A stretch of 64,000 bases of DNA, taken from the NCBI GenBank assembly GCA_022568135.1, contig JADFFQ010000013.1:1-64000 (forward strand). The letters run 5' to 3'. This stretch comes from Planctomycetota bacterium (lineage in GTDB: Bacteria > Planctomycetota > Phycisphaerae > Phycisphaerales > SM1A02). Below are positions 12,234 to 39,351 of this stretch, in pieces. Both the position numbers and the translations under genes were made by a program. A model generated the notes under the pieces. The model saw only the letters and a program-made list of their open reading frames with translations. It searched no databases and was not told the DNA's origin. Numbering within the stretch: position 1 is the first letter of the stretch; each line of letters begins with the position of its first letter.

Positions 12234-12242
12234 CCCGGTCGT

Positions 12243-12668: not shown

Positions 12669-12731
12669 GTCATTGTAGCGGTCAGCGATCAACTGTCAGC
12701 CACCAGTGGAAAATCAATGGGGGAGAGTTGG

Positions 12732-12767: not shown

Positions 12768-12781
12768 GTACACTACCCGCC

Positions 12782-20437: not shown

Positions 20438-20508
20438 CAGCGTTTCACTCGCCAAAACGTAGCATCAGTGCGCTGGCGCCGTGACCGAAGCGCACAGAGT
20501 AAATCGTT

Positions 20509-21384: not shown

Positions 21385-21571
21385 CGGGCTCATCGGGCAC
21401 CATACCGTGGTGGCTGCGGAGTTGACAGCACCCAGCAGAGCGCTACTGTATCCCATAGGCAACTGAGCCTCAAGTGCTGGCACGGCCCGTGAGAGGAGAA
21501 GAGTGGTCCTTGCCGGAAACCAGTTTCATACCCGCCAACTGGCGACCCGTAGGCACGCCAAGGAGTCAGCC

Positions 21572-22657
21572 GTGCGGCTGATCCGCAGCCACCACAGCCC
21601 CCGACTCGGCGCCGCCTGTCTCGCCGTGATCAGCCTTTCTTTTCCGGCCGGCGCTGATGTAAACGACGTGAGCTTCGACGAGCCGACGCTCGATCGTTGG
21701 ATGTACCCGTTCAACGCCAATCCGGGGTTCCAGTGGTTCGCGTCGGTCTTCGGGGCGCTGACGAATGAGGGGTTCGACCCAAACTTTGATAACCGCGACG
21801 GGCAGATGCTCATCGGGTTCGACACCTCACCGTTCGTTGGGCCAGGCCTTGGACCGGACGCCTACACGATCACCTCAGCGCACGTCACCCTCACCGTCAT
21901 GACCGATGAGTCCTTTGCGTACGACCCGACGGTTGACCCGTACACCAGTTGGCTGCCGACGGGCGATCCGGATTTCGAGGCTGACCGCGACGCCGGCCGT
22001 CCGGTCGAACTCTTCGGCGCCGGCTTCCGGTACGGCTGGTCCGCCCCCACCTTCCCGGAGGATGGTCCCTACTGTGATGGGTGCAGTTGCTTCCCTCCCA
22101 ATTCCTGCAAATACCAACGCAGCGTCTACCCCACCGATTCCAACCCGACCTGCGAGGATCGCGACATCTCGAACAACATCGACGAGCGGTTCGACCCCCT
22201 GCCCTTCGGCATCGGCTCCAACGACCAGTTGATGCAAGGCGACCCGGTGCCGCTCGACACCGAGCTGACGTTCGAGATCGATGTCACTGATCCCTGCGTG
22301 CAGGCGTATTTGCAGCAGGCGTTGGATGAAGGGATGCTCGACTTCGTCGTGGCCTCGATCTTCCCCGCCGTAAAGCAGCAGGAAGGGACGTTCCCGAAGT
22401 TCTACACCAAGGAGAACCCGCTGGTGAAGTTCGACTTCGTCAGCGCCGGGCGACTCGACATGACCGTCGAGGTCGATGACAGGCCTGGTCCGCTGGGCGA
22501 CCTCGACGGCGATGGAACCGTCGGCATCATCGACCTGCTCATTCTCCTAAGCCAGTGGGGACCCTGTCCGCCCAAGGGGCAATGCCCGGCCGATCTGAAC
22601 GAGGACGGCAGTGTCGGCATCATCGACCTGCTCATTCTTCTGGCCAACTGGGGGTAA
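21572..22657 (+). CDS. Secreted protein with C-terminal dockerin type I repeats
   Basis: 361 residues. GTG at 21572 lies six bases after AGGAG and opens a signal peptide (LGAACLAVISLSFPAGADV). The body has Cys-rich CDGCSCFPPNSCKY and ends with two EF-hand-like dockerin repeats: DLDGDGTVGIIDLLILLSQWG and DLNEDGSVGIIDLLILLANWG (20 or so residues each, DxDxDGxxx-D calcium ligands). In clostridia dockerins bind cohesins; in planctomycetes they sit at the ends of many secreted proteins and their partner is unknown. The gene is followed 79 bases later by another secreted protein. Confidence 0.85.
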   Translation: MRLIRSHHSPRLGAACLAVISLSFPAGADVNDVSFDEPTLDRWMYPFNANPGFQWFASVFGALTNEGFDPNFDNRDGQMLIGFDTSPFVGPGLGPDAYTITSAHVTLTVMTDESFAYDPTVDPYTSWLPTGDPDFEADRDAGRPVELFGAGFRYGWSAPTFPEDGPYCDGCSCFPPNSCKYQRSVYPTDSNPTCEDRDISNNIDERFDPLPFGIGSNDQLMQGDPVPLDTELTFEIDVTDPCVQAYLQQALDEGMLDFVVASIFPAVKQQEGTFPKFYTKENPLVKFDFVSAGRLDMTVEVDDRPGPLGDLDGDGTVGIIDLLILLSQWGPCPPKGQCPADLNEDGSVGIIDLLILLANWG

Positions 22658-22736
22658 CACCGCCTGGGGGATACCAAGCGAACCACGTACCGTCACGACC
22701 GCCCACATCCCACCAAGAGAAGAGAGGAGAGCCGAC

Positions 22737-23459
22737 ATGTCGCTTGATCACCTAAACGTCCGGTTCTGTGCTGTGCTTGCGCTGCTCGGCGTGCTGAGTA
22801 GCAACAGTTCAGCCGCTATCGTTCCCTTCACCGAAGATTTCGACAACGACGCCGCCAACTGGTTCGATTCCACAGGCATGAACCTGCTTGATTGGATCCC
22901 GGCGGGCGGTCCCGACGGCGGCAGCTACGTTTCGAGCATCTTCAACTTTGTCAACTCCGTGCCCGACGACCCGGCCATCCTCTTCCGGGGCCATGACGCA
23001 TTCGACAGCAGCGGCGATGCATTCGTCGGCAACTGGATTACGGACGGCGTCAGCGAGTTCAGCTTTTTCATCCGCCACCACGCGCCCCTGCCGTTGACCG
23101 TGTTCACGCGTTTCGCTAGCCCGATGAATTTCCCCGGCGCAGTTGCTTTGGAATTCGTTCCGCTGCTGCCCAACGTCTGGACGGAGATCTTGATCGCGAT
23201 CGACCCCGGCAACCCGCAGTTTATCACGTTTGAAGGCAGCGACTTTGACACGGTGTTCAGCAACATCGGGAACCTGCAGCTCGGCGTGATTGTGCCGAGA
23301 GACCTAGCCGGCGTGGACGCCGATTTCACCTTCGACCTGGACAAGGTCACGATCATTCCGGCTCCCGCCGGCTTTGCCGTCGTGGTCATCGGCGCACTTG
23401 TGAACCGTCGCCGACGCCGCAGCCGGTCCGCGTGGCGATCGGTGCCCAACGCAGCGTGA
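22737..23459 (+). CDS. Secreted protein with PEP-CTERM-like C-terminal anchor
   Basis: 240 residues. A signal peptide (FCAVLALLGVLSSNSSAA) leads to a beta-rich body (FTEDFDNDAANWFDSTGMN..., laminin-G-like in appearance but not assignable). The end is PAPAGFAVVVIGALVNRRRRRSR: Pro-Ala-Pro, a short hydrophobic helix and an Arg cluster, the tripartite sorting tag of the PEP-CTERM/exosortase type as seen in planctomycetes, followed by a 12-residue tail. ATG at 22737 with GAGAGGAGA before it. The window holds no exosortase gene. Confidence 0.78.
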   Translation: MSLDHLNVRFCAVLALLGVLSSNSSAAIVPFTEDFDNDAANWFDSTGMNLLDWIPAGGPDGGSYVSSIFNFVNSVPDDPAILFRGHDAFDSSGDAFVGNWITDGVSEFSFFIRHHAPLPLTVFTRFASPMNFPGAVALEFVPLLPNVWTEILIAIDPGNPQFITFEGSDFDTVFSNIGNLQLGVIVPRDLAGVDADFTFDLDKVTIIPAPAGFAVVVIGALVNRRRRRSRSAWRSVPNAA

Positions 23460-23509
23460 GTATTCGAGGCATCGGCCACAGGGTATGATCCGCGACCGAG
23501 TCATTTGCC

Positions 23510-24577
23510 TTGGCTGCGGCGGAACCATCTATTGAGCAGCAATCAGCTGCGCAACAACCAACCCGCGGTAGGCGGGCTGAGCTCGCCGATCACCCCCGGC
23601 GTCGCTGGCCGGCCACCTTGTGGCTGGGGGTCGGGCTGATCGTTGTCTGTGAGCTCCTGCTTCTCATCGACGTGCAGCAGCGCGGCGTGGCGGTGTTGCC
23701 GCCGCTGCCGGGCCAGGATGTCGCTTCCCCCAGCAACGTGCTGGGTCATCTGGCCCGATGGGTGGCCCTGAACATGACGCCGCTGTGCTGGGTCGGCTAT
23801 CTGCTGGTCATGGACGGGGTTCTGACCTGCCTTGCCCGCCGCCGCGAGGGCGAGATCAGCCGGCCGGAATCGCCCGCCCGCAGCCGCCCCCGACGATTCA
23901 TCATCGCCGTTGTGGTCAGTGTTGGGGTGTGGGTGTTCTTTGATTGGGTCAACTTCTCCTACATCCACGCATGGCAATACCACGGGGTCGAAGCGCTCAG
24001 CCGATCGCACCAGTACATCGCCAAGTTCATTGCTTTCGGGGCCATCTGCCCGGCGATGTTCCTCGCAGCCCAACTCTACCAGCAACTCGGCCTGCGGCGA
24101 TGTCGCACCGCGGGCATCCGCCTCGGCCGGCCGTGGCAGATCATCATGGTGCTCCTGGGCGTTCCCGCGTTTGTGTTTCCCTTTCTTGTGCGCGATCCGA
24201 TCGGGTGCGTGACGCTGTGGGTGAGCGTGGTGCTTCTGCTGGACCCGGTGAACCATTGGCTGGGGGCCCCCAGCCTGATCGGCGACTGGCAGGCCGGCCG
24301 ATGGGGCCGCACCGCTTCGCTCATGCTCGGCGGTCTGACCTGCGGTGTCCTTTGGGAGTTCTGGAACTACTGGGCCGCCGCGAAGTGGACCTACACCCTG
24401 CCCTTTCTCGGCCCGTTTGAGCAGTACAAAGCCTTTGAGATGCCCCTGCTGGGGTTCCTCGGATTTCTGCCGTTCGCACTCGAATGCTGGGTGGTCCTGC
24501 AGACGATCCTGCTGCTGATGCAGAGGATGAGATTGCCACTGGCTGAGCCGCTTCCCGATGCCGACACGCTGCTCTGA
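23510..24577 (+). CDS. Polytopic membrane protein of unknown function
   Basis: 355 residues, about seven helices: 30-55 (LWLGVGLIVVCELLLLI), 85-105, 125-150 (FIIAVVVSVGVWVFFDWVNF), 165-185, 205-250, 275-300 (SLMLGGLTCGVLWEFWNYWA) and 325-345. WEFWNYW and WQYHGVEA-type aromatic motifs suggest a conserved intramembrane site, but I do not recognise the family. The only start in frame after an upstream TGA is the TTG at 23510. The thioredoxin-fold gene follows about 100 bases later. Confidence 0.7.
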   Translation: MAAAEPSIEQQSAAQQPTRGRRAELADHPRRRWPATLWLGVGLIVVCELLLLIDVQQRGVAVLPPLPGQDVASPSNVLGHLARWVALNMTPLCWVGYLLVMDGVLTCLARRREGEISRPESPARSRPRRFIIAVVVSVGVWVFFDWVNFSYIHAWQYHGVEALSRSHQYIAKFIAFGAICPAMFLAAQLYQQLGLRRCRTAGIRLGRPWQIIMVLLGVPAFVFPFLVRDPIGCVTLWVSVVLLLDPVNHWLGAPSLIGDWQAGRWGRTASLMLGGLTCGVLWEFWNYWAAAKWTYTLPFLGPFEQYKAFEMPLLGFLGFLPFALECWVVLQTILLLMQRMRLPLAEPLPDADTLL

Positions 24578-24680
24578 CCGCAGCTACCCATCGCTCGCAG
24601 CCCATCGATGTGCAGGGCCCCGGCGGCGCGGGTATCATGGCCCCGGCCAACCATCAATACCCCCTATGGGAGATCGTGTC

Positions 24681-25262
24681 ATGGTCGAGACGCTTTCCAC
24701 GATGAACCCCCTCGGCACGCAGGCCCCGGACTTCAGCCTGCCCGACACGCAGGGCAAAACCGTTTCACTTTCCCACTTCACCGATGCGCCGGCCCTGGTG
24801 GTGATCTTCATGTGCAACCACTGCCCGTTCGTCAAGCACATCGCCGACGGCCTGGCGGACCTCGCCCGCGATTACCTGTCCGAAGGCGTCGCCGTGGTTG
24901 GCATCAACGCCAATGATGTCGAGAATTACCCGGATGACAGCCCCCAGAAGATGGCCGAAGAGGTGAAGGCTCGCCGATACCCGTTCCCCTACCTGTTCGA
25001 CGAAACGCAGGCCGTCGCCAAGGCCTATCGCGCCTCCTGCACGCCGGACTTCTTCGTCTTCGATCTTGATCGACGATTGGTCTATCGCGGGCAGATGGAC
25101 GACAGCCGGCCGGGCAACGGCGAGCCGGTCACCGGATCGGACCTGCGGGCTGCACTGGATGCCGTGCTGCAAGGCCGCCCGGCGCTGCCGGAGCAAAAAC
25201 CCAGCATCGGCTGCAACATCAAGTGGAAGCCGGGCCACGAGCCGGACTACCTCACCGCGTAA
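24681..25262 (+). CDS. Thioredoxin-fold AhpC/TSA-like protein
   Basis: 193 residues. PLGTQAPDFSLPDTQGKTVSL opens a peroxiredoxin-like fold and the redox site is FMCNHCPFVKHI (C-x-x-C), typical of a thioredoxin-family group often annotated as 'redoxin' or peroxiredoxin-like. The cis-Pro loop appears as ASCTPDFFVFD, a further match. The C-terminal GCNIKWKPGHEPDYL is the usual ending of this group. No signal peptide, so it is probably cytoplasmic. ATG at 24681; an ATG at 24666 would add five residues. Confidence 0.87.
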   Translation: MVETLSTMNPLGTQAPDFSLPDTQGKTVSLSHFTDAPALVVIFMCNHCPFVKHIADGLADLARDYLSEGVAVVGINANDVENYPDDSPQKMAEEVKARRYPFPYLFDETQAVAKAYRASCTPDFFVFDLDRRLVYRGQMDDSRPGNGEPVTGSDLRAALDAVLQGRPALPEQKPSIGCNIKWKPGHEPDYLTA

Positions 25263-25612
25263 CCGCCCCAGGCGACAGCCCCCGGCGCGCACAAACGGGG
25301 CAAGTGATTCACCGACTTCGTTGCGCGCGCAGCGTTCGGCGGGGCACCTTTTGCGCGTATGGGGGGCTCGTTGCTGACCTGCAATTGAGGTTGGTACACC
25401 CCGTGCGCGCGCCGGAGTGACCGTCCGGCGACCTCGGCGCGCGCCAGCCATGCCGCGTGCGCAGTAACTTCGGCTAACCGAGGCTTATCTCCGCGCAACT
25501 CGCGCTAAGTCGGCGCTTCGCAGGCGCATCGAGCCTTTATCTTCGACCAACTCGTGCGCGCCGGCGCGACCTCAACCCGCCGTGCGCGCAGAGACGTGGC
25601 TGCGCCGCCCAC
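25263..25612. other. Gene-free stretch rich in GCGCGC words
   Basis: 350 bases without a credible gene. TGCGCG, GCGCGC or GTGCGCGC words recur at about 25286, 25323, 25352, 25404, 25437, 25457, 25492, 25556, 25563 and 25582, far denser than in neighbouring gaps, many followed by a G+C-poorer spacer. The stretch lies between the convergent ends of the thioredoxin-fold gene and the beta-helix gene. No clear hairpin with T run, no tRNA and no CRISPR-like regular spacing is seen. Confidence 0.5.
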
Positions 25613-25882
25613 CTACGGGCCGCATGTGCCGCAGGGGTTGCCGCCGGCGACCGAGCACCACTCGGCCAGCAGCTTCGCCAGATCGAACGCATCCACGCAC
25701 CCATCCGGCACATTGGCCGAACCGGAGATGTCCGCGACGGCGAGATTCGCCGGCGTGCAGTTCTCGCAGGGCGGGCTCGGCGGGTTCGGATCGTTCACGG
25801 CGGAGCACCACGCCCCGAGCATGGCCCCGAGGTCAAACGCGTCAACGCATCCATCAGGCACACCGCCCGGCCCGGTGATGTC
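25613..25882 (-). repeat. Dockerin-type 3' cassette, copy A
   Basis: About 270 bases coding for two EF-hand-like units (GVPDGCVDAFDLGAMLGAWC and NVPDGCVDAFDLAKLLAEWC) joined by NDPNPPSPPCENCTPANL. The DNA is nearly the same as 63282-63552, including silent positions, while the genes' bodies are unrelated. A short 3' piece is also present at 131-187. Confidence 0.75.
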
Positions 25883-26846
25883 CGCCGGGGGAGCTCGTGC
25901 CCTGGAACTCGTATGCGCCCATGTCCACGATCGGGTTGATGCCGTCGCGGTTGCCGGTGTCGGGCGTGTCGGGATCATCGACGAACCGCGGGTTGCCATC
26001 CAGGTCTTCGGTGATGCCGGCGGGTAGGGCGGTATTGTCCGCCGCGTCGATGCAGGGCGAGCCGGGTGACAGGCGCAGATCGTCGTCGTCGGTGCCGGGG
26101 ATGTTGTCCGGGCCGTCGGCATCGACGAACAGCGGATCGGCGTTGATGTTGCCGGTGCCGGCGAAGCCGCCCTGGACAGCGCTGTAGGTGACGGTGGGCG
26201 TGGAGGCGATGGCGACGATCTCATTCGGGCTGTCACCCCACAGGACGCAGTTGGTCACCGTCGGGTTGCTGCCCTTGAAGTTGAACATCCCGCCGCCGCG
26301 ATTGGCCGTGTTGTCACTGAACGTGCAGTTGGTCAGGGTCGGGCTGCTGATGATGAGATTGTTCATCCCGCCGCCGGCGACAGCGGCCGTGTTGCCGCTG
26401 AAGGTGCAGTTGGTCACCGTCGGACTGCTGCTGGAGTTGAACATTCCGCCGCCGGTGGGGACGCTGCCGTTGGTGAGGGTCAGGCCGTCGATGACGGTGC
26501 CCGCGCCTTCCCCAGAGTCGCAGGTGATGATGCTGGTCCCGAGGGCGGTGCCGTCGAGGATCGTCGCGGCCACAACCGCCGGGTTGTTCGGGGCCGTGCT
26601 CCGCAACGTGACCGCCTTGCCCAGCAGGTTGATGCTTTCGTTATAGATGCCGGTTTCGACGATGATCTCATCGCCAGACGCCGCAGCGGCGACGATCGCA
26701 TCCTGAATCGAGCAGTACGGATCGCCGAGGGTGCCCGAACCCGGGCCTGGACAGACGGCCGCATCCACGTACCAGGTGGTTTGGGCCTCAGCTGCCCCAC
26801 CCAGGGCAGCAAGCCCCAACGCAAGAGTGCAACACAGTTTGAACAT
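25613..26846 (-). pseudogene. Secreted right-handed beta-helix protein with dockerin tail, frameshifted
   Basis: From the ATG at 26846 (AAGGAG six bases before) comes a signal peptide (CTLALGLAALGGAAEAQ), WYVDAAVCPGPGSGTLGDPYCSIQDAI, then parallel beta-helix repeats (TVTNCTFSGNTA, TLTNCTFSDNTA, TVTNCVLWGDSP) and the choice-of-anchor-Q-like end (DPLFVDADG, LSPGSPCIDAAD, VDMGAYEFQG). At a G5 run (25887-25891, C5 in sense) the frame breaks; one base fewer gives SSPADITGPGGVPDGCVDAFDL and the dockerin-like tail ending CGTCGP at 25613. The unshifted frame stops at 25854. A homopolymer error or a real, phase-variable-like change are both possible. Confidence 0.78.
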
Positions 26847-27209
26847 GACCATCTCCTTCCACACAAGTGCCGGCGGTTGTCCGACGGCATCCCGCCAATG
26901 AGTCATTGGAACACGGATCGTCCGCCCAGTCAACGAAAAAATGCGCGGATTGCGGGCGAGGTGACATAAGGCATGGCGGCGGGTGTGGCCTGCGTTTGGA
27001 GGGACACCGGGCTGGGGACAGGGCATCTCGGTGGGCGGGGGGTGAGGGCATTGGCAGTTTGTGAATCCTGGCACGCAGTCGGTTGCGGGAACCTGGGTGT
27101 GGGCCTATCTTGGCCGTCGCTTGGGCCGGCCGGTCCCGATTCGATCGGGATCGCCGCCTTGGGGCGTCGTTTTCGGGCACCGGCCGGGCTATGAGTAGCG
27201 AGGGCATGG
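26847..27209. promoter_or_regulatory. Divergent upstream region of the beta-helix gene and nuoJ
   Basis: 363 bases between two divergent starts, so it must hold both promoters, but no sigma-70-like pair stands out. tcccgat (27134-27140) and atcggga (27144-27150) form a small perfect hairpin about 60 bases before nuoJ. The central part is G-rich. No gene is seen. Confidence 0.4.
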
Positions 27210-28220
27210 ATGGGCCCCACGGTTCTCTACACCGCCAGCGTTTTCGGGGCCGTCGCTGTGTACCTGCTGCTGCGACCCGGACCGGTGCCGATCAAGGTTG
27301 TCGGGACGCTGCTGGGCTTGGGGGCCGGGGCCTGGATCCTCAAGGAGTCCGCGGTTGTGCTGTCGGCGGATGAGGCCGGCGGGGCGGGAACCTTCTTCGT
27401 GCTCTTTAGCCTCATTGCCATCGCGTCGGCGGTGCGGATGATCACCCATCACCGGCCGCTGTATTCGGCGTTGTACTTCGTCATGGTGGTGCTGAGCTCG
27501 GCGGGGTTGTTTCTGCTGCTTGAAGCAGAGTTCATGGCGTTTGCGCTGGTTATCGTGTACGCGGGGGCGATCCTGGTCACCTACCTGTTCGTGCTGATGC
27601 TCGCCCAGCAGACGCCGGAGACGGATGATCAGAGCGGCCAGCCGGAGTATGACCGTGTGCCGCGCGAGCCGGCGGCGGCAGTGGTGGTCGGGTTTGTGTT
27701 GTTCGCGTTGCTGGGCGACATGTTTTTTTCACCCGAGGGGATCGCCGATCTGCCGGCGCCGCCTTCGGAGCAACAGGCCCGAGTGGCGGCGTGGCAGCAG
27801 CTTGACGCCTTGCCGGATCGGTTGGCCTCAGCTGTTCGCCGGGAGATTGGCCGATCCACTGACATCGAGATTGTCGCCGATCGGTTTGGAAGTGCGGTGC
27901 GGATCGAGGAGGGCGACGCCTATGTGCTGGTGCGCACCGCCGAGTCAACCGAGCCGCAGACGGTTTGGCTTCCCGACGACGCGATGCCGCAGAACATCGA
28001 GCAAGTCGGCCTGGCGCTGATCGCCAAGTTCCCGGTCAGTCTGGAGTTGGCCGGGGTGATCCTGCTGATGGCGATGTTCGGAGCGGTGGTGCTGGCCCAG
28101 CGGCAGATCGAGCTATCGGAGCAGGAGAAGCGGGCGGCGGCGGCCGGCGACGGGCACCGGCGAGGCGGCGGTATCAGCGATGCGCCACCGGCTGCGGGCA
28201 CCGGCGGGGGTGGCCGATGA
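27210..28220 (+). CDS. nuoJ: NADH-quinone oxidoreductase subunit J, with large insertion
   Basis: Membrane subunit of complex I. The NuoJ core is clear: FFVLFSLIAIASAVRMITHHRPLYSALYFVM, LLLEAEFMAFALVIVYAGAILVTYLFVLML, and the last helix LELAGVILLMAMFGAVVLAQRQ. At 336 residues it is far longer than the usual 165-200. Two extra helices precede the core (residues 1-50) and about 95 polar residues (180-275, SPEGIADLPAPP...DDAMPQNIEQVG) are inserted before the final helix, probably outside the membrane. First gene of nuoJKLMN; its stop overlaps nuoK (ATGA). ATG at 27210; another at 27206 is out of frame. Confidence 0.9.
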   Translation: MGPTVLYTASVFGAVAVYLLLRPGPVPIKVVGTLLGLGAGAWILKESAVVLSADEAGGAGTFFVLFSLIAIASAVRMITHHRPLYSALYFVMVVLSSAGLFLLLEAEFMAFALVIVYAGAILVTYLFVLMLAQQTPETDDQSGQPEYDRVPREPAAAVVVGFVLFALLGDMFFSPEGIADLPAPPSEQQARVAAWQQLDALPDRLASAVRREIGRSTDIEIVADRFGSAVRIEEGDAYVLVRTAESTEPQTVWLPDDAMPQNIEQVGLALIAKFPVSLELAGVILLMAMFGAVVLAQRQIELSEQEKRAAAAGDGHRRGGGISDAPPAAGTGGGGR

Positions 28221-28552
28221 TCCTGGCCTCCATAGAGCCGATCAACGGGCTGACGCTGAGCCACTACATGCTCACCAGCGCCTTGCTGTTAGTGATCGGC
28301 CTGATCGGTTTTCTCACCCGGCGCAACATGATCGTGATGTTCCTGTGCACCGAGCTGATGCTCCTGGCGGCGGCCATCGCGATGATTGCGTTCGGCCGAT
28401 ACCACCTCGACGTCTCAGGCCAGGTGTTCGTGATCTTTATCCTCACGATCGCTGCGGCTGAGGCGGCGCTGGCGCTGGCTTTGGTGGTGCTGTTGTATCG
28501 GCATAAGGCGACGCTGAGCGCTGAGGCGTGGTCGGAGCTGAGAGAGCCGTGA
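28217..28552 (+). CDS. nuoK: NADH-quinone oxidoreductase subunit K
   Basis: 111 residues with the three helices typical of NuoK (ND4L): YMLTSALLLVIGLIGFLTRRNMIVMFLCTELML (carrying the conserved Glu of the proton path), AAAIAMIAF, and VFVIFILTIAAAEAALALALVVLLYRH with the second conserved Glu. ATG overlaps the nuoJ stop and the stop (TGATG) overlaps the nuoL start, so the three genes are translationally coupled. Confidence 0.95.
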   Translation: MILASIEPINGLTLSHYMLTSALLLVIGLIGFLTRRNMIVMFLCTELMLLAAAIAMIAFGRYHLDVSGQVFVIFILTIAAAEAALALALVVLLYRHKATLSAEAWSELREP

Positions 28553-30669
28553 TGGCATCGGCGGACATCTTCAGCGTGCTGGCGGGCAACCTGACGCTTG
28601 CCTTGCAAGACTCGGCGCCGATACCGATCGCTGAGACCGCAGTCGGCATGGGATGGGCGGGCTGGATTCTTTGGCTGCCTGCGATATCGACGGTGATGTG
28701 CGGGCTATGCGCGGCGTTGCGCGTGAAGAACAAGCTGCCCGCGTGGATCACCGTGGGCTTGCTGGGCACATCGTTCTTGATGACCCTTGCGCTGTGGTTG
28801 CGGTACGACCATCCGGTGGTGATTCACCTGCTGGATTGGATCGTGCTAGGCGGCGACCGCTGGACGTTCATTGCGAACTTCTCGCTGTACGTCGATTCGC
28901 TGACCCTGCTGTGGATGCTGTTCGTGACGGGGCTGGGCACGCTGATCGCCCTGTACGCGAGCGAGTATATGGAGGCGGATGTCCGGGGCGGCTACGCGCG
29001 GTTCTTCGCGGGCATCAGTGTGTTCCTGTTCGCGATGACCGCCCTGGTGATGGCCGACAACCTGCTGATGCTGTATCTGGGTTGGGAGGGCGTGGGCTTC
29101 GCGTCGTATTGGCTGATCGGCTACTACTACCGCAAACCGTCGGCGGTGGCGGCGGCGAAGAAAGCGTTCATCGTCAACCGCATCGGCGACCTCGGGCTGG
29201 CGCTGGCGATCTATTTGATCTGGCATACCTTCGGGACGGTCGAATACCGCGCGCTGTTTGAGGCGCTTGACAGCGGAAGTTACACCGCCGAAGCCGGCGG
29301 CTGGTCGATCAAGGCGATTCCTTACCTGCTGATGCTCGGGGCGTTCGGAAAGAGCGCGCAGATCCCGTTGTACGTGTGGCTGCCCGATGCGATGGAAGGT
29401 CCCACACCGGTGTCGGCCCTGATCCATGCGGCGACGATGGTCACGGCCGGCGTCTTTCTGGTGGCCAGAATGTACCCGGTGTTCCTGTTGGAACCGGCAT
29501 CGCTGACGGTGGTCGCGTGGATCGGCGGATTGACGGCCCTGCTGGCGGCGACCATCGCCATGGCCCAGCACGACATCAAGCGCATCTTCGCCTATTCGAC
29601 GATCTCGCAACTCGGCTACATGTTCATGGGCCTCGGCATGTTGTCGAGCGTCGGGGCGGCCTATCACGTGTTTACCCACGCGTTCTTCAAGGCGGTGCTG
29701 TTCCTGACCGCCGGGGTGGTGATGCACGGTTTCGCCGGGCAAGTGGACTTGCGGAAGGTCTCGGGTCTGCGGCATCTGCCGGGGTTTCGGATCACCAGCT
29801 TCACGATGCTCTATGCCTGTGCGTGCCTGGCCGGGGTGCCGTTGATCACCAACGGCTTCTGGTCCAAAGACGCGATCATGGCCCAGGCGTTCATCTCGAC
29901 GGGTCCGGGGTTTAGGGCGCTGGGTGTCATCGCCATCATCACCGCCTTCCTGACCGCCTATTACGCGTTCCGTGTGTGGTTCCGCGTTTGTGCCGGGCCG
30001 GTTCATTTCGAGCCCGGCGAGGAGCAACACGACGATAATCATGCCGCCCAGCACGGCGAGTTTCGCCCGCATGCGCCGCGGTTGGCGGTCAACCTCGTGC
30101 TGATCGTCATCACGATCGGCGCGGTGGGGTCGATCTTCTTGAAAGGATGGGCGGGTGAGCGGATTGAAGATTCCACCGCCGCGTACCTCAGCCCGCATGC
30201 CCAGGGCGTCGGCTTCTGGGGAGACCCTCACGCCTGGATGCCGTGGGTGGCAAGCGCCGTTGGACTGCTGGGAATTGCCGTTGCGGGATATTTCCACCTG
30301 GTGAATCGCAAAGCCGCGGACGGCCTGAAGAATGCGATGCTGGCCAACCCGGCCACGCGATGGTTGCCCACGGCGATGGAGAACAAGTGGTACGTGGACG
30401 AGCTGTACCACCTGATGTTCCGCGGGCCGCTGTGGCTGGGCGGTCATATCCTCAATCTCTTCGACCGTTACATCATTGACATGGCGATCGTTGACGGCGT
30501 GGCACGGATTCCCCGGTTGCTGGGTCGAGGGTTTCAGCCGCTTTCCAACGGCATCTTGCAGTCATACGCGGTGTCGATGGCCGGAGGCGTCGCGCTGCTG
30601 GCGATTCTTGTCTTCCTCATGCCTCAGCTGGTCGATTGGCTGAGCCATTGGATGGGAGGGGCGGGCTGA
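28552..30669 (+). CDS. nuoL: NADH-quinone oxidoreductase subunit L
   Basis: Antiporter-like proton-pumping subunit with the long lateral helix, 705 residues. Conserved patches include YLGWEGVGFASYWLIGYYY, KAFIVNRIGDLGLALAIYLIW, GAFGKSAQIPLYVWLPDAMEGPTPVSALIHAATMVTAG (spread over residues 262-302) and QHDIKRIFAYSTISQLGYMFMG. A His/Asp-rich loop (EEQHDDNHAAQHGE, about residue 490) is a species-level insertion. The C-terminal end has the amphipathic and final helices. Start ATG at 28552. Confidence 0.96.
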   Translation: MASADIFSVLAGNLTLALQDSAPIPIAETAVGMGWAGWILWLPAISTVMCGLCAALRVKNKLPAWITVGLLGTSFLMTLALWLRYDHPVVIHLLDWIVLGGDRWTFIANFSLYVDSLTLLWMLFVTGLGTLIALYASEYMEADVRGGYARFFAGISVFLFAMTALVMADNLLMLYLGWEGVGFASYWLIGYYYRKPSAVAAAKKAFIVNRIGDLGLALAIYLIWHTFGTVEYRALFEALDSGSYTAEAGGWSIKAIPYLLMLGAFGKSAQIPLYVWLPDAMEGPTPVSALIHAATMVTAGVFLVARMYPVFLLEPASLTVVAWIGGLTALLAATIAMAQHDIKRIFAYSTISQLGYMFMGLGMLSSVGAAYHVFTHAFFKAVLFLTAGVVMHGFAGQVDLRKVSGLRHLPGFRITSFTMLYACACLAGVPLITNGFWSKDAIMAQAFISTGPGFRALGVIAIITAFLTAYYAFRVWFRVCAGPVHFEPGEEQHDDNHAAQHGEFRPHAPRLAVNLVLIVITIGAVGSIFLKGWAGERIEDSTAAYLSPHAQGVGFWGDPHAWMPWVASAVGLLGIAVAGYFHLVNRKAADGLKNAMLANPATRWLPTAMENKWYVDELYHLMFRGPLWLGGHILNLFDRYIIDMAIVDGVARIPRLLGRGFQPLSNGILQSYAVSMAGGVALLAILVFLMPQLVDWLSHWMGGAG

Positions 30670-32318
30670 TGTGGGTCTGGCCGGCGCTGCTGCTTGGGGT
30701 TCCGTTGTTCGGGGCGATCGTCATCGCGATTGCGCCGTCGCGGCAGGCGAAGTGGATTGCGCTTGGGGTGTCCGCGGCGACGTTTGTCTACAGCGTGATG
30801 CTTGCACTGGTGTTTAGGCACTGGGGCGACGGCGGCTTCGGGTTCGAGGCGTCGATCCCCTGGCTGGGCCTGGAGAAGCTCGGCATCACGCTGAGCCTGG
30901 GGGCTGATTCGGTCTCGATGTTGCTGGTCCTGCTGACCACGCTGCTCATGCCGCTGTGCGTGGCTGGGTCGTTCACCGCAATCAACGAGCGGCTCAAGGA
31001 ATACTACGGCTGGCTGCTGGCGATCGAGGCGGCGATGATCGGGGTGTTCATCGCCCGCGATCTGATTTTCTTCTACGTCTGCTTCGAGTTCACGCTTGTG
31101 CCGATGTACTTCCTCATTGCGATCTGGGGAAGCGAGGGCCGGGCTAGGGCTTGCACCAAGTTCTTTCTGTACACGTTCACGGGATCGCTGATTGCGCTGG
31201 CGGGGTTGCTCTACATCGCATGGCAGTACCAGATCGGGTACGGGCAATGGTCGTTTAGCATCGAAGCGCTGACCGTCTTCGCCGCCACCGAACTTACCGC
31301 GTCGCAACAGGCATGGGTGCTGTTGGCGCTGCTGGCGGGATTTGCGGTGAAGGTTCCGTTGTTCCCGTTGCATACCTGGCTGCCGCTGGCTCACACCGAA
31401 GCGCCGACGGCCGCATCGGTTGTTCTGGCCTCCATTCTGTTGAAGCTGGGGACGTATGGGCTGTACCGGTTCGTGCTGCCGATGCTCCCGGAGGCGGTGG
31501 TCGCGTATGCGCCGGCCATCGCGGTGGTGTCGATCATCGGCATTCTGTACACCGCGCTGATCTGCTGGGTGCAGGATGACATCAAGCGGTTGATTGCGTA
31601 CTCATCGGTCAGCCACCTCGGCTTCTGCGTGCTGGGGCTGTTCGCCCTGAACCCGCTGGGTGTTCAGGGGTCGGTGTTGTACATGCTCAATCACGGCCTC
31701 TCGACCGGGGCCTTGTTCTTCCTGGTGGGGATGATCTACGAGCGCTACCACACTCGCGACATGACCAAGCTGGGCGGGCTTTCCAAGCGGATGCCGGTGT
31801 GGGCGTTCTTCATGGTGTTCTTCGTGCTTTCATCGGTTGGCCTGCCGGGACTCAATGGGTTTGTCGGTGAGTTTCTCTGTCTCATCGGTGCGTTTACGGC
31901 CAGTGCCGACAACGCGATCTATCCGGGGGTGCTGGGGCCGTGGTACGCGGCGGTGGCGGGCGTGGGGATGATCTTCGCCGCGATGTACTTGCTCATCATG
32001 GTGGGCAAGGTGGTGTTCGGGCCGCTCATTGAGCCGGCTCGCGCCGCGGCCGCCCACGCGATTCGCCTCCCCGCCGATCTGACCATACGGGAGATCGCGG
32101 TGCTTGCCCCGCTAGCCGTTCTGTGCCTGTACATCGGCCTCCAGCCCAAACCGTTGACCGACGCCATGGAAGGCTCGATTGAGGGAGTTCTCGCCGCCTA
32201 CCCGGCGACGGTTGAACGCCATCTGGCGGCGTCGCACGAATCGCCCTCCGATCCCGCGGTTGGCTTGGGCGTCGTCGTGCAGCAGCCCCGCGAGCATGAG
32301 GAGCGCATCGATGGTTGA
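30669..32318 (+). CDS. nuoM: NADH-quinone oxidoreductase subunit M
   Basis: Second antiporter-like subunit, 549 residues. Characteristic segments: FFYVCFEFTLVPMYFLIAIWG with the key Glu, KFFLYTFTGSLIALAGLLYI, AGFAVKVPLFPLHTWLPLAHTEAPTAASVVLA (positions about 225-260) and QDDIKRLIAYSSVSHLGFCVLGL. About 50 polar residues follow the last helix, ending EHEERIDG. ATG overlaps the nuoL stop by one base; the stop overlaps nuoN by eight bases. Confidence 0.96.
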   Translation: MWVWPALLLGVPLFGAIVIAIAPSRQAKWIALGVSAATFVYSVMLALVFRHWGDGGFGFEASIPWLGLEKLGITLSLGADSVSMLLVLLTTLLMPLCVAGSFTAINERLKEYYGWLLAIEAAMIGVFIARDLIFFYVCFEFTLVPMYFLIAIWGSEGRARACTKFFLYTFTGSLIALAGLLYIAWQYQIGYGQWSFSIEALTVFAATELTASQQAWVLLALLAGFAVKVPLFPLHTWLPLAHTEAPTAASVVLASILLKLGTYGLYRFVLPMLPEAVVAYAPAIAVVSIIGILYTALICWVQDDIKRLIAYSSVSHLGFCVLGLFALNPLGVQGSVLYMLNHGLSTGALFFLVGMIYERYHTRDMTKLGGLSKRMPVWAFFMVFFVLSSVGLPGLNGFVGEFLCLIGAFTASADNAIYPGVLGPWYAAVAGVGMIFAAMYLLIMVGKVVFGPLIEPARAAAAHAIRLPADLTIREIAVLAPLAVLCLYIGLQPKPLTDAMEGSIEGVLAAYPATVERHLAASHESPSDPAVGLGVVVQQPREHEERIDG

Positions 32319-33906
32319 CAAGTTGTGGTTCCTCATCCCGGAGATGTGGCTGTTCGTTGGGGTCGTGGTGATTTCGGTCATGGGTCTGTGCAAGGCCAGA
32401 GGCCTCCGCAATGCGGTCCCGCTGGTGGTGATCGGGTTCCTCGCCGTCGCATTCATCATCACGCCTTTGCTCTACACCGACGACCGGCTTGCGAAGGTTG
32501 CCGACGGTCTGCTCATCCCCATGCTGGGCCGGTACGTGAAGATGGTCGTCTGCGCGATCGGCATTGTGTTGACGATGCTGAGCGTCGGCTTGATCGACCG
32601 GCCCTTGGAGCAGGCGGTGGCGACCGGTCGGGCACGATTTGATCCCATCCGGGTCAGCCGCGGCGAGTACTTCGTGTTCTTCCTGCTCAGCCTGATCGGG
32701 GTGATGTTGGTGTGCAATGCCAACGACCTGATCTGGCTGTTTCTGGCTCTGGAGCTCACGTCGCTGCCCACCTACGTCATGGTCGCCATCAGCCGGCCCT
32801 CGCGCCGAGCCCAGGAAGCGGCGGTGAAGTATTTCTTCCTGGGAGCGATGGCCGCAGCGATATTCCTCTACGGGCTCGCGCTGCTATACGGCTCGACCGG
32901 AACCATCGTGCTGACCGAGATGCGCGACGCGTTTGCTGAGCAGGCGGCGACCGGCGGGCTGAATCGACTCGCCCTGGTGGGCATGGTCCTCGCGCTGCTG
33001 GGGGTGTCCTACAAGATCGTGGCCGTGCCGATGCACTTCTACGCCGCCGATGTCTACGAAGGCGCGGCCTCTGCGGTGACCGCGTTCTTGGCCTTCGTAC
33101 CCAAGACGGCGGGGATGCTCGCGATCATCCTGTTGTTGATGACCGTCGGCTGGAGCGGTCATCTCGGCCCGGGCGTGGAGGGCTTGCCCCAACCGATCCT
33201 CATTACCTTGTGGATGATCTGCGTGCTGACGATGACGCTGGGCAACATCGGGGCGATGCTCCAGCGGTCCGCCAAGCGGTTGCTGGCCTACAGCTCCATT
33301 GCCCACAGCGGCTACATGCTCATCGGCGTGATCGCCGGGCCCGCTCTTGGCATCAACGCCGTGTTGCTCTATCTGCTGGCCTACGGGGTGATGAACACGG
33401 CCGCGTTCGCCGTGCTGGCCGCGCTTGAGCGCAAGGGCGAGGAGATCGAGTCCCTGGACGATCTGGCCGGTCTGCGCCACCGCCACCCGGCGCTTGCGAT
33501 CGTGATGGCGATCACGGCGCTGTCGCTCGTCGGGTTCCCCCCGCTGCTGGGTTTCTTGGGCAAGTTGTATTTGTTCATGGCCGGTGTCGAAGCCGGCCAC
33601 GTCGCCCTGGTGGTGATTGCGCTGATCAACAGTGCGATCAGCGCGTGGTACTACCTGCGGTTGTTGGGCCTGCCGATGCTGGCCATGCCTACGCCGACCA
33701 GCGAAACGATCGTGTCACGACCTGTTGTCTGGCCGCGGGTGGCGGCGCTGGTAACGGCGATCGGCGTGGTGGGTCTGCCGCTGTTCGCGGGCCGTCTGCT
33801 ATCGGCTTCCGAAGCGGTCATCCAGACCGATGAGGTTCCGCCGATGGTCGATCAATTCGATGCACTGATGGTCGATCAGCCGCCGGAGGATCAGTCCGTT
33901 CCCTGA
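32311..33906 (+). CDS. nuoN: NADH-quinone oxidoreductase subunit N
   Basis: Third antiporter-like subunit, 531 residues. NuoN hallmarks: LIWLFLALELTSLPTYVMVA, AAVKYFFLGAMAAAIFLYGLALLYG, YKIVAVPMHFYAADVYEGAASAVTAFL, KRLLAYSSIAHSGYMLIG and ALSLVGFPPLLGFLGKLYLF. The acidic tail (DEVPPMVDQFDALMVDQPPEDQ) is unusual but short. Last gene of the nuo run; nuoA-I are not in the window, so complex I genes are split over at least two loci or lie far upstream. Confidence 0.96.
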   Translation: MVDKLWFLIPEMWLFVGVVVISVMGLCKARGLRNAVPLVVIGFLAVAFIITPLLYTDDRLAKVADGLLIPMLGRYVKMVVCAIGIVLTMLSVGLIDRPLEQAVATGRARFDPIRVSRGEYFVFFLLSLIGVMLVCNANDLIWLFLALELTSLPTYVMVAISRPSRRAQEAAVKYFFLGAMAAAIFLYGLALLYGSTGTIVLTEMRDAFAEQAATGGLNRLALVGMVLALLGVSYKIVAVPMHFYAADVYEGAASAVTAFLAFVPKTAGMLAIILLLMTVGWSGHLGPGVEGLPQPILITLWMICVLTMTLGNIGAMLQRSAKRLLAYSSIAHSGYMLIGVIAGPALGINAVLLYLLAYGVMNTAAFAVLAALERKGEEIESLDDLAGLRHRHPALAIVMAITALSLVGFPPLLGFLGKLYLFMAGVEAGHVALVVIALINSAISAWYYLRLLGLPMLAMPTPTSETIVSRPVVWPRVAALVTAIGVVGLPLFAGRLLSASEAVIQTDEVPPMVDQFDALMVDQPPEDQSVP

Positions 33907-33931
33907 TGATGGCCGGACGCCGTTTGAACGC

Positions 33932-33947
33932 CCCCGGAAGGCCGGGG
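33932..33947 (+). terminator. Short GC hairpin after nuoN
   Basis: ccccgg, aagg, ccgggg, 26 bases past the nuoN stop. There is no T run, so it is a weak candidate for the end of the nuo transcript. It also marks the left border of the accessory island. Confidence 0.3.
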
Positions 33948-34005
33948 ACGTTGTAGGATGAGTACTTGACCCACTCGATGATGGCGCGGGTGCCGGTGAC
34001 CAGCT

Positions 34006-34863
34006 ATGAAGAAGACTCCCGTCCCTCTTTCCGTCCCCATAACGAACCGATCAACTCGCATCATGCCATTGCTGCGTTGGATAGGCGGCAAGCAGCACCT
34101 CGTCCGGAGGTTGTTGCCCTTCGTTCCGGCTGACTACAAGAAGCGCTGCTACCGAGAGCCGTTTCTTGGCGCGGCATCCATGTTCCTTGCTCTGCGGCCA
34201 GAGCGTGCATACCTGGCAGACGCCAATCAACATCTGATCCAATGCTACGAGGCTGTCCGCGACACTCACGACCGTGTTTCTGCGTACCTCCGCGGTCACG
34301 CCGCCAAGGATTGCTCGGACCACTACTATGCGGTGCGCGAGGCCTACAATCGGCGGTCTCCGTCGGCCGCCCAAGCTGCCCGGTTCCTTTACTTGAACAG
34401 GACCTGCTTCAACGGGGTTTTTCGGGTCAACACTCGCGGGCAGTTCAACGTTCCCTACGGCTACAAAGACCATCCGATCTTTCCTGATCGGGATGTCCTT
34501 GCGACGGTAAGCCAAGCTCTCACCAATGCAGAGCTGGCTGCTGTCGATTATCAGGATTCGCTAGCAGCCGGCGAACCGGGAGACTTTTTCTACCTCGATC
34601 CTCCGTACCCCCCGCTGAACGGGACGTCCTATTTCACTCACTATACCAAGGACAGGTTTGATGCTGACGATCAGAGAGCTCTGGCTGAATGGGTGTGGGA
34701 GTTGGACGACCGGGGATGTTTGTTCATGATGTCCAATGCTGACACTCGCATGATTCGGAGGCTATACCGCAACTTTCACGTCACGCGGTTACCAGTGATC
34801 CGCTACGTTACCTGCAAAGCCACTAAGCATCGCGTCGGCGAACTTGTGATCACCAATTACTGA
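34006..34863 (+). CDS. D12-class N6-adenine DNA methyltransferase (Dam-like)
   Basis: 285 residues that would methylate adenine using S-adenosylmethionine. Motif I follows LLRWIGGKQHLVRRLLPFVP and reads EPFLGAASMFLAL; motif IV is YLDPPYPPL (DPPY); LNRTCFNGVFRVNTRGQFNVPYG is the D12-class substrate block. Most family members start near MPLLRWIGGK, so the ATG at 34063 is as likely as the one at 34006. The gene is the first of three with 8- and 5-base gaps. No cognate classical restriction enzyme is adjacent, but a PD-(D/E)XK protein lies at 37915. Confidence 0.9.
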   Translation: MKKTPVPLSVPITNRSTRIMPLLRWIGGKQHLVRRLLPFVPADYKKRCYREPFLGAASMFLALRPERAYLADANQHLIQCYEAVRDTHDRVSAYLRGHAAKDCSDHYYAVREAYNRRSPSAAQAARFLYLNRTCFNGVFRVNTRGQFNVPYGYKDHPIFPDRDVLATVSQALTNAELAAVDYQDSLAAGEPGDFFYLDPPYPPLNGTSYFTHYTKDRFDADDQRALAEWVWELDDRGCLFMMSNADTRMIRRLYRNFHVTRLPVIRYVTCKATKHRVGELVITNY

Positions 34864-34871
34864 GGTAGCTG

Positions 34872-35411
34872 ATGACTGCTCTCGACACCACCGAACCGGC
34901 TCTGCGATGGCGTTACAAACACGAGCTGCACAGAACAGCGGCGTGGCTGTTCACGCATCTCATTTGCGCTCTGATGCCACTCTGGGGAAGCTGGCTACTG
35001 CTCAAGCTTGGCAAGCACAGCACCGGCCTGTCCGACTATGTAAGCCATGGCGAGTTCTGCCTCTATGCGGCGGCGCTGGCGGGGACAACTCTTTTTGTGA
35101 TCCTGCGCGAGGAACGTCACCCACTTCGCGGCCGGTTGTGGACGGGTCTAATAGCTGCGGCTCTGCTTATGTCCTCCGCGCTTGTCTTCGCCGGCGCGTT
35201 TACGCTGAATTACACGAGTGGGGCCAGCATCCCGCTAGAACTGGACATTGCGTTTCTCACGACAATATCGATCGTTCTTTATTTCGCCGCACTCGTGACG
35301 GCTGTGATAACGCTCTTTCTTGAGGGGCTAAGCCAGTCATACGATCCGCGCAAGGCCCAGATGAGGGAGCAGGGAGCTTTGACGCAGGCGTTTCGCTCCA
35401 TTAAAGACTGA
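34872..35411 (+). CDS. Four-helix membrane protein in the methylase/DGQHR cassette
   Basis: 179 residues, not recognised. Helices at about 22-46 (RTAAWLFTHLICALMPLWGSWLLL), 57-77 (GEFCLYAAALAGTTLFVIL), 86-110 (LWTGLIAAALLMSSALVFAGAF) and 122-148 (LDIAFLTTISIVLYFAALVTAVITLFL); both termini are polar and by the positive-inside pattern probably cytoplasmic. GAGGTAGCTG precedes the ATG. Its position, eight bases after the methylase and five before the DGQHR gene, suggests a joint function; a membrane effector or signal partner would be usual in defence cassettes, but this is inference. Confidence 0.75.
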   Translation: MTALDTTEPALRWRYKHELHRTAAWLFTHLICALMPLWGSWLLLKLGKHSTGLSDYVSHGEFCLYAAALAGTTLFVILREERHPLRGRLWTGLIAAALLMSSALVFAGAFTLNYTSGASIPLELDIAFLTTISIVLYFAALVTAVITLFLEGLSQSYDPRKAQMREQGALTQAFRSIKD

Positions 35412-35416
35412 GTCAC

Positions 35417-36508
35417 ATGGCACAAGACTTGATCAGATTCCGGTGCATTCCGGTCCAGCAACCGCTCGGGACGTTCTATATTGGGGCAATCGCGGCGCGC
35501 GACGTACTCGCCATCGCATACGCCGATATTCGGCGCATAAAGGAACGCGATATCGAGAAGATTGTCGGGATCCAGCGCGAATTGGTGCTCCGACGCGTGC
35601 GCGAACTCAAGCAGTACGTCCAGAACATAGACGCGACGTTCCCGACAAGTGTAATCCTTGCAGTATCGGGCGAACATGCCGAGTACGTGGAAGAGCGTAA
35701 GGAGATGAGAATAACACGACAAGAGGATATCGCCAAGATCATCGACGGTCAACACCGTATCGCTGGCCTGGAGGACTTCGATGAAACATTCGAGCTCAAC
35801 GTAACGATCTTCATAGACATGGACATTCAAGACCAGGCTATGACCTTCGCGACGATCAACCTAGCGCAGACAAAAGTCAGCAAGTCCCTGGTTTATGACC
35901 TCTACGCGTTTCAGAAGGCACGCAGCCCGCAGAAGACGTGCCACAACATCGCACGTCTCCTCAATAGTGAATCAGCTAGCCCACTCAAATCGAGAATCAA
36001 GATCCTCGGAAAGGCAACGGGAGAACCCTTCGAGTTCATCACGCAGGCGACCTTCGTGACGGCGCTCCTGAAGTACATCTCCAGCGACGCAATGAGGGAC
36101 CGCGACCTGTTGAAGCGCGGGAAGCGGGTGCCTCCGGCGTTGGGTGCTGATGCCACCAAATTTGTATTCCGGGACCTCTTCATAGACAAGAGGGATGCCG
36201 AGATCGCCAAAATCATCTGGAATTACTTCGACGCGGTGGCACAACGCTGGCCGACGGCATGGAACTCGCGAGAGCAGGGCGACATGCTGAATCGAACACA
36301 GGGTTTCTCAGCACTCATGAGATTCTTGGGTCCGGTGTATCGCGGCAGCGCGGACTCGCGAGGGCGGCTTTCGAGTAAGAGCGTCCTTGGCGTGCTGAAG
36401 AAGGTCAAGCTTCGCGATTCAGACTTCACGAAGGAGAACTACCTGCCGGGCACAACTGGTGAGACTAAGTTGTTTCGCCACTTGCGCGAGCAATCGGGCC
36501 TGGAATGA
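35417..36508 (+). CDS. DGQHR-domain protein (DndB/DpdB-related)
   Basis: 363 residues. The defining motif is KIIDGQHRIAGLEDF near residue 113, preceded by TSVILAVSGEH and followed by LNVTIFIDMDIQDQAMTFATINLAQTKVSKSLVYDLY, the pattern of DGQHR proteins such as DndB (regulator of DNA phosphorothioation) and DpdB (7-deazaguanine DNA modification), whose fold relates to the ParB/Srx superfamily. The C-terminal half is alpha-helical and unassigned. No dndCDE or dpd genes are visible, so the partner here seems to be the methylase and membrane protein. Base use is visibly AT-richer than in nuo. Confidence 0.85.
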   Translation: MAQDLIRFRCIPVQQPLGTFYIGAIAARDVLAIAYADIRRIKERDIEKIVGIQRELVLRRVRELKQYVQNIDATFPTSVILAVSGEHAEYVEERKEMRITRQEDIAKIIDGQHRIAGLEDFDETFELNVTIFIDMDIQDQAMTFATINLAQTKVSKSLVYDLYAFQKARSPQKTCHNIARLLNSESASPLKSRIKILGKATGEPFEFITQATFVTALLKYISSDAMRDRDLLKRGKRVPPALGADATKFVFRDLFIDKRDAEIAKIIWNYFDAVAQRWPTAWNSREQGDMLNRTQGFSALMRFLGPVYRGSADSRGRLSSKSVLGVLKKVKLRDSDFTKENYLPGTTGETKLFRHLREQSGLE

Positions 36509-36794
36509 TGCTACAAACCGGCGGTCAGAGTGCACACGTCACAATTCTCGAGGGCGGGCAGTGCCCACCAATCGATTCAGGCGCCCCCGCAACCTATGCC
36601 CCAATGGTCGGGCTGCCGACGGCGCCGTGGCACTCATCTCGCAAGGGTCGTGACCTCAAGATTGGCCACGAAAGACCCGACATCCGAAGAGGGGTCGTCT
36701 GTGGTGGCCGGGCCCGGCTTTCTCTCGAATTGGGCGGGCGGGCGAGTTGCACCAGCCACGGTTGGAGCGAGGGCTCCGCGTCGTAGGAGTGACC
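36509..36794. other. Gene-free gap between cassette and PilZ gene
   Basis: 286 bases. Open frames here have no protein-like composition. gggcgggcagtgcccacc (about 36553-36570) is a palindrome-like word of the dispersed intergenic type. The PilZ ribosome site (AGGAG at 36785) ends the gap. No tRNA or attachment site is seen. Confidence 0.4.
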
Positions 36795-37914: not shown

Positions 37915-39351
37915 ATGACGAATGAACTCGACACCTCTTCATGGGAATCAGCACGGTTGATTCCTGTTTCTGGCATTCGTGACGCCAAGGAACAAGAACG
38001 CCGAGCCACCTCTGCCCTTCTCGCGGTATTGTCATCTGTTGATGAGTTTGGTTTAGCGTTCGCAAAACCATTTGGCGCCATGAAGGGCCAATTTGAAACG
38101 TATATTGAGATCCCGTTTGAACTGGGCGATGGACGCAGTGTTCGGCCAGATGGACTCATCCATACCATCCGCGGCAAACGCACATGGACCGCTCTAGTTG
38201 AAGTAAAGACGGGAAGCAATGAACTCAATCGCGAGCAGATCGAGGTGTACTTGGACCTGGCGAAAGAGCAAGGTTTCGATTGTGTCATCACGGTCTCAAA
38301 TCAGATCGCCAGAATACCCGGTGAACATCCGGTTGACGTAGACAAGCGTAAACTGAGAAAAGTAGCCCTCCACCATTTGTCATGGTCACGAGTCTTGACA
38401 GAAGCCGTTCTACAGAAGACCCACCGCGGGGTAGCAGATCCAGATCAAGCGTGGATTCTCGGCGAGTTGATTCGGTACTTGGAGCACCCCAATGCCGGTG
38501 CCGTGGATTTCGGCGACATGGGCGAGCATTGGGTTGGAGTACGCGATGCAGTGAAGCACGGCACTCTTCGTCATTCAGACAAAAAGGCCGTCGAAATAGC
38601 GGGAAAATGGGAGGAACTCGTGTCGTTTGTGGCTTTGCGCATGGGGCGGCAATTGGGCACGGATGTTCAAGAAGTGCTCTCCGCAAAGGAAAGAAAAGAC
38701 ATTTCCGTTCGCATAGCGAACATCGTTGATGCGATGGCGACGCGAGGCCTGATGCTTGGAGCAATCCGCATACCCAACACCGTGGGTGACATCGCTCTCA
38801 CGGCAGATCTGCGTGCCCAACAGATTGTCGTGTCGCTCTCATTAGATGCACCCAAAGCAGGAAGAACCACGACGAGAATCAACTGGCTCTTGCGACAGTT
38901 GAAGCCAAGTGCACCCGACGTCCGACTTGACAGCTGGGGAATGCGATCCAGGTCATCTATGTCCGACCTGCTTGCTAATGTCCGGAACAAGCCATCACTT
39001 CTGGTTCCGCTCGACAATCGCGAACTCGTCTCATTTACAGTGTCGCTCACACGGCCAATGGGCCTGAAACGTTCTGTCGGCAAACGTTCGTTCATTGATT
39101 CAATTCTTGATACGTTGGATGAATTCTACGGGGACGTTGTTCAGCATTTGCAAGAGTGGCAACCCGATGCACCGAAGCTACAAAAGAGCGCAGTAGAGGA
39201 GACAGATCCTCCAGCAGGAAAGCAGGCAGAACCCACCGTCTTTCCAGACGCGCAATCAAAGCCGAACCAGACGAACGAGGAAGATCGAGGAGGAACGAGG
39301 GTCAGTAACGATGATCAGCCGGCTATTGCGAGTGCCACGCGCACTGCTTGA
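37915..39351 (+). CDS. PD-(D/E)XK nuclease-like protein
   Basis: 478 residues. The region 75-130 has the restriction-endonuclease-like pattern: RPDGLIHTIRGKRTWTALVEVK, that is an Asp after a Pro-less RPD turn and E-V-K (the E/DxK half), then an acidic helix (NREQIEVYLDLAKEQGFDCVITVSNQ). The large C-terminal part is unassigned and the last 60 residues are disordered (PPAGKQAEPTVFPDAQSKP). Known relatives are uncharacterised. Base use is AT-richer than neighbours, and the gene is bracketed by a 92-base direct repeat, so acquisition by transfer is likely. A role as a solitary nuclease, with or without the methylase cassette, is inference. ATG at 37915. Confidence 0.72.
   Translation: MTNELDTSSWESARLIPVSGIRDAKEQERRATSALLAVLSSVDEFGLAFAKPFGAMKGQFETYIEIPFELGDGRSVRPDGLIHTIRGKRTWTALVEVKTGSNELNREQIEVYLDLAKEQGFDCVITVSNQIARIPGEHPVDVDKRKLRKVALHHLSWSRVLTEAVLQKTHRGVADPDQAWILGELIRYLEHPNAGAVDFGDMGEHWVGVRDAVKHGTLRHSDKKAVEIAGKWEELVSFVALRMGRQLGTDVQEVLSAKERKDISVRIANIVDAMATRGLMLGAIRIPNTVGDIALTADLRAQQIVVSLSLDAPKAGRTTTRINWLLRQLKPSAPDVRLDSWGMRSRSSMSDLLANVRNKPSLLVPLDNRELVSFTVSLTRPMGLKRSVGKRSFIDSILDTLDEFYGDVVQHLQEWQPDAPKLQKSAVEETDPPAGKQAEPTVFPDAQSKPNQTNEEDRGGTRVSNDDQPAIASATRTA

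Follow-up and report, generated by a model that had tools for sequence, protein, structure and literature searches.

A mobile cassette of three neighbouring genes was identified that codes for a Dam-type D12 adenine methylase, a predicted four-helix membrane protein of no known family and a DGQHR protein with a predicted ParB/Srx-like fold. The three genes travel together between very different bacteria and prophages. They look like an undescribed defence unit linked to DNA modification, and the pair of membrane and DGQHR proteins is also found with other marking systems. The cassette is located at positions 34006-36508 of a 64,000-nucleotide stretch from a Planctomycetota bacterium (GenBank assembly GCA_022568135.1, contig JADFFQ010000013.1, positions 1 to 64,000; hereafter the window). 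The initial annotation had described three tightly spaced genes on one strand, AT-richer than the preceding nuo operon, and this description was correct. All three open reading frames are on the forward strand with gaps of 8 and 5 bases. G+C is 56.1% compared with 62.8% for the window and 63.7% for positions 20000-33906, and no other 2.5-kb stretch of the window is as low. The annotation had also stated that dnd, dpd, BREX and DISARM core genes are absent. A PADLOC search at 1e-5 gave no hit among 50 other ORFs of the window, so the statement holds at that sensitivity: dndC, dndD and dndE, dpd neighbours, PglX/PglZ/BrxC and DrmA/DrmB were not detected.

The first gene (34006-34863, 285 aa) is a member of the D12-class, Dam-family adenine-N6 methyltransferases (Pfam MethyltransfD12, E 7e-53; TIGR00571, 242 bits against a cut-off of 115). 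In the PDB it matched DpnM (2dpm, E 3e-50) and EcoDam (about 1e-40), and it aligns with both over nearly its whole length. The start may be the ATG at 34063 rather than 34006, because the first residues are not conserved in the closest copy, the locus L007 of a Phycisphaerae MAG. The catalytic DPPY motif (34597-34608, residues 198-201) was invariant in 73 of 73 cassette methylases. The N-G-x-x-R and F-N-V-P elements shared with EcoDam and DpnM are conserved; GATC specificity is probable from the family, yet no methylation data were examined. GATC counts in the window (590 seen, 621 expected) were uninformative with respect to avoidance. The host genome (3.35 Mb, 93% complete) has no other D12 gene and no DpnII-family REase; a search for a BglII-type enzyme lacked a positive control and was uninformative.

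The second gene (34872-35411, 179 aa) codes for a protein with four hydrophobic segments and an all-helical AlphaFold2 model (pLDDT 86.5). It belongs to a rapidly evolving, unnamed family without a match in Pfam, PADLOC or NCBIfam. We examined whether it belongs to a known effector family. A Pfam search with 96 members gave only scattered weak hits, and fold searches against PDB and viral structures gave nothing at E≤1e-3. Conserved residues are Pro36, Gly60, Glu61, Tyr65 and Ser133; Gly60-Glu61 (35049-35054) is at the start of the second hydrophobic helix (weighted frequencies of 0.74 for G and 0.61 for E in 96 homologues). The third gene (35417-36508, 363 aa) codes for the DGQHR protein, which is related to DndB (TIGR03187, 205 bits against a cut-off of 58.9; Pfam DndB, 42.2 against 29.1). 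In the DGQHR motif (35744-35758, residues 110-114) D, G, H and R were invariant and Q was present in 94 of 95 aligned homologues. A sequence search of the PDB gave nothing convincing. The AlphaFold2 model (pLDDT 88) matched best Noc (7ol9, E 4.6e-3, probability 0.95), followed by PadC, ParB and ATP-bound sulfiredoxin. None of these matches was below E 1e-3 and NTP binding was not assayed, thus assignment to the ParB/Srx NTPase fold is suggested by the model but not settled.

Next we asked whether the three genes are a chance array. The initial annotation had conceded that its reading would fail if homologues were rarely adjacent in other genomes. The species-level prokaryote genome collection and IMG/VR were searched with an alignment of DGQHR proteins only; neither the membrane gene nor the methylase was selected for. 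This gave 106 loci, 80 in 13 bacterial phyla and 26 on viral contigs. Four loci are cut just upstream of the gene. In the other 102 of 102 loci a membrane protein is encoded directly upstream, most often with an overlap of 4 bases. All belong to one family by HMM although mean pairwise identity is only 17%, compared with 44-45% for the other two proteins. Addition of three plasmid loci resulted in 109 loci, of which 85 carry a D12-class methylase (82 of the close subfamily of the cassette) and 96 a methylase of the D12, MT-A70 or N6_N4 class within the flanks considered (up to 6 kb; a few are 4-5 kb away). Of the 13 loci without a methylase eight are truncated nearby, one (L085) is in a Dnd locus, and four (L047, L048, L050 and L079) have full flanks and no modification gene in view. 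Protein distances correlated between DGQHR and membrane proteins (r=0.75) and between DGQHR proteins and methylases (r=0.51), and 0 of 2000 permutations were as high. The condition was thus clearly not fulfilled. In the phylum of the window only its own genome and one remote homologue were found among 392 genomes; an order-level survey was not carried out in other lineages. Apart from L007 the nearest relatives are in other phyla. The family is nearly absent from 50,697 records of isolated phages: one query gave no match and another two weak partial ones.

The cassette is mobile as a unit. L007 shares 89.3% DNA identity with the window over 34051-36508, and nothing else of its 13-kb locus matches the window. 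In a genome of the same genus the nuo operon (95% identical) is followed directly by the PilZ gene. The alignment ends on the nuoN side at 33916 and resumes on the PilZ side at 36608, with about 19 bp in between; the interval 33917-36607 is absent. So the window carries an insertion that consists of exactly this cassette. An independent second copy and the empty site argue against an assembly artefact. Repeats that mark the insertion were not found at the two flanks. A dispersed repeat of about 129 bp is present at 25622-25750 and 63291-63419, about 91-94% identical to a copy on another contig (C24) of the same genome. A second AT-rich ORF (37915-39351, 478 aa, 52.9% G+C) was considered as a fourth member and rejected. 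It has a weak VRR_NUC-like stretch, and its tblastn relatives lie under Rhodococcus/Streptomyces plasmid genes annotated as TerD family. It is also absent from the same-genus genome (37596 to 39546 missing) and constitutes a separate insertion with its own relatives.

The conserved core is the membrane and DGQHR pair, whereas the modification partner is exchangeable (D12, MT-A70, N6_N4, DpnII or BglII-type R-M, Dnd). The methylase is D12 in most loci and MT-A70 in others; supported branches force at least seven changes for the MT-A70 label. In several Bacteroidota loci the order is Dam, DpnII, membrane protein, DGQHR protein and a second methylase, i.e. the pair is inside DpnII operons. MT-A70 is usually accompanied by a BglII/BstYI-type REase. 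GATC is common to the DpnII and BglII/BstYI sites; the specificity of the MT-A70 enzymes is unknown. In prophage contigs a CI-like repressor precedes the pair on the same strand in 8 loci and the Dam gene points toward it from the other side. This fits expression in the lysogen, although expression was not measured. In five loci (L016, L017, L038, L045 and L078) a large protein is encoded beside the cassette. It has a central DndB domain, a nuclease-like N-terminus (weak NERD/Hjc hits in L017) and a weak Swt1-like HEPN C-terminus, possibly a nuclease-armed DGQHR protein. Two more distant DGQHR genes on plasmids have different neighbours. In Zymomonas pZZM405 (3614-7276 of locus L118) the gene is followed by a 440-aa protein without predicted membrane helices and a Dam methylase, possibly a soluble variant. 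In Lactiplantibacillus pCD033 (2861-4813 of locus L117) it is preceded by a 273-aa protein with two predicted membrane helices after a soluble domain.

A link to phosphorothioation was examined next. The DGQHR protein of Dnd loci is also preceded by a small membrane protein in 9 of 9 loci inspected. In E. coli 55989 (12001-13680 of locus L123) the pair lies between dptH and dndE; the DGQHR gene is annotated as two pieces and the membrane gene as 'accessory gene regulator B family'. Similar DNA is present in 126 of 5426 complete E. coli genomes. The Dnd membrane profile matched the Dam-cassette membrane profile with a score of 33.5, better than its reversal (17.9), 18 unrelated membrane proteins (12-23) and 19 of 20 block shuffles (19-26); the exception, 34.9, may have nearly kept the order. 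This is suggestive, not proof. The stronger case is L085 (5076-12478), in which a Dam-clade pair is embedded in a Dnd locus. Its dndD and dndC are 54% and 66% identical to those of an Aliivibrio Dnd locus, yet its DGQHR protein is 46% identical to a Dam-cassette DGQHR and 29% to the Aliivibrio one. Its membrane protein scores 87 bits with the Dam-cassette model; an N-terminal extension resembles a winged helix, HARE-HTH-like by eye, which Pfam did not confirm. The pair has therefore moved between systems with different marks.

The initial annotation had proposed that the methylase marks self DNA, that the DGQHR protein senses or regulates it, that the membrane protein acts as effector, and that the three-gene unit is a distinct system. 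This interpretation is supported in part. The genes are a recurrent, co-inherited unit distinct from Dnd, Dpd, BREX and DISARM, yet the pair is not confined to the three-gene form, and relatives of the pair do reside inside Dnd loci, so it is related to dnd companions. The explanation we favour, with about even confidence, is a mobile, self-contained, modification-linked defence unit. In this view Dam-type methylation marks the cell's own DNA, and the DGQHR protein is an NTP-binding DNA protein of the ParB/Srx fold that loads on DNA lacking the mark in an NTP-dependent way. The membrane protein, encoded immediately upstream and co-evolving with it, would hold it at the inner membrane and/or be switched on by it to damage the membrane. 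A DndB-like protein binds ATP and GTP (PMC12704722), and the histidine and arginine of DGQHR are invariant in 95 homologues, so nucleotide binding is likely retained. What the analysis demonstrates is association, co-inheritance, mobility, exchange of the methylase half, occurrence in R-M and Dnd loci and beside prophage repressors, and a ParB-like predicted fold. GATC specificity, NTP and DNA binding by this protein, reading of the mark, direct contact within the pair, effector action and an anti-phage outcome are inferred, the last from context; that the DGQHR protein senses or regulates and that the membrane protein is an effector was not tested, no functional data were found, and no experiment shows defence or toxicity. 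Against this explanation, most cassettes lack a nuclease, the membrane protein has no fold match to a known effector, and four loci with full flanks show no modification gene in view. Further, the characterised relatives DndB and DpdB are reported as a regulator and as an ATPase aiding modification, not as sensors of foreign DNA.

The main alternative, which we consider unlikely but not negligible, is that the pair regulates or assists DNA modification, i.e. that it tunes or localises the modification enzyme with the membrane protein as an anchor. DndB is reported as an ATP-dependent negative regulator and DpdB as a ParB-like ATPase used in base insertion (PMC10853773, PMC12839542), and the pair accompanies very different modification enzymes. 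However, D12 methylases need no ATP helper, canonical DndB already exists beside the pair in Dnd loci, and the rapid evolution of the membrane partner is unusual for a regulator. Somewhat less likely is a maintenance module of mobile elements, for addiction or superinfection exclusion: loss of the methylase would expose unmarked DNA and the pair would harm the cell, or the membrane protein would block entry of related phages or plasmids. The cassette is found on plasmids and in prophages beside the repressor, it is mobile as a unit, and near absence from isolated phages is expected of a lysogeny gene. On the other hand, many copies are on contigs without an evident mobile element. Type II R-M systems can behave as both, thus this reading overlaps with the favoured one. 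It is improbable that the pair is only an accessory to a separate restriction enzyme (DpnII, BglII-type, Dpt or a DndB-nuclease fusion), with methylase-only cassettes as remnants or as antirestriction devices against host GATC-cutting enzymes. REases or nuclease-like DndB fusions are present in a minority of loci, and an orphan Dam alone could protect an element from DpnII-type enzymes; yet most loci lack such a nuclease and keep all three genes intact, and no DpnII-family REase is present in this genome, although the search for a BglII-type enzyme had no positive control. A chance array of an orphan methylase and unrelated genes, for which only the close spacing speaks, is refuted by the adjacency, the distance correlation, the precise mobile unit and the empty site.

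Modification-based defence is normally understood as a mark plus a nuclease. Here a widespread unit keeps the mark but in most cases shows no nuclease; instead it is paired with a membrane protein and a DNA protein of predicted NTP-binding fold, and the same kind of pair is seen with unrelated marks. Possibly, though less likely than not, the pair is a general-purpose readout module that plugs into chemically different self marks, N6-methyladenine from Dam or MT-A70 and backbone phosphorothioate, and turns absence of the mark into a membrane-level response, which would make restriction possible without a nuclease. If the unit works as proposed it would be a nuclease-free way to act on unmarked DNA, and it would give a role to unassigned genes beside many dnd loci. 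With 2.5 kb it is small enough to be tested directly. The term DGQHR does occur in the literature searched, yet targeted searches, which did not cover most subscription papers and bioRxiv, found no description of this cassette or of the membrane partner, nor did term searches of the main text of the 2024 Dnd reappraisal. The parts belong to known families or lie near them; the combination and the exchangeable pair appear to be undescribed.

Among known systems, Dnd phosphorothioation loci with the 'DNA phosphorothioation-associated DGQHR protein 1' (TIGR04172) share a small membrane protein of similar length and topology directly upstream of a DGQHR gene. There, the self mark is phosphorothioate made by the dnd genes, and the DGQHR proteins form a separate clade (support 100) at about 25-29% identity; the window protein scores 206 bits, below the family cut-off of 450. 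Similarly, it scores 82.8 against the DpdB model NF041060, for which 300 is required. Type II R-M systems with GATC-containing sites (DpnII; BglII/BstYI family) have a DNA methylase beside the pair and, in several loci, a DpnII or BglII-type REase in the same cluster. No REase was detected in the window, and most cassettes have none. PD-lambda-5, the prophage 'compacted RM+Abi' system (PMC9519451), is likewise a prophage-borne, methylase-containing defence, and the window methylase hits PD-Lambda-5_B at 46.9 bits. Neither the membrane nor the DGQHR protein hits a PD-Lambda-5 model, and the partner PD-lambda-5_A was not detected. Finally, Noc and ParB are NTP-switched DNA clamps, and Noc binds the membrane. 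They are the best structural matches of the DGQHR model, although with weak full-length scores, and no ParA partner or binding site is known for the cassette protein. The proposed analogy is a DNA-membrane link, which here would be provided by a separate membrane protein.
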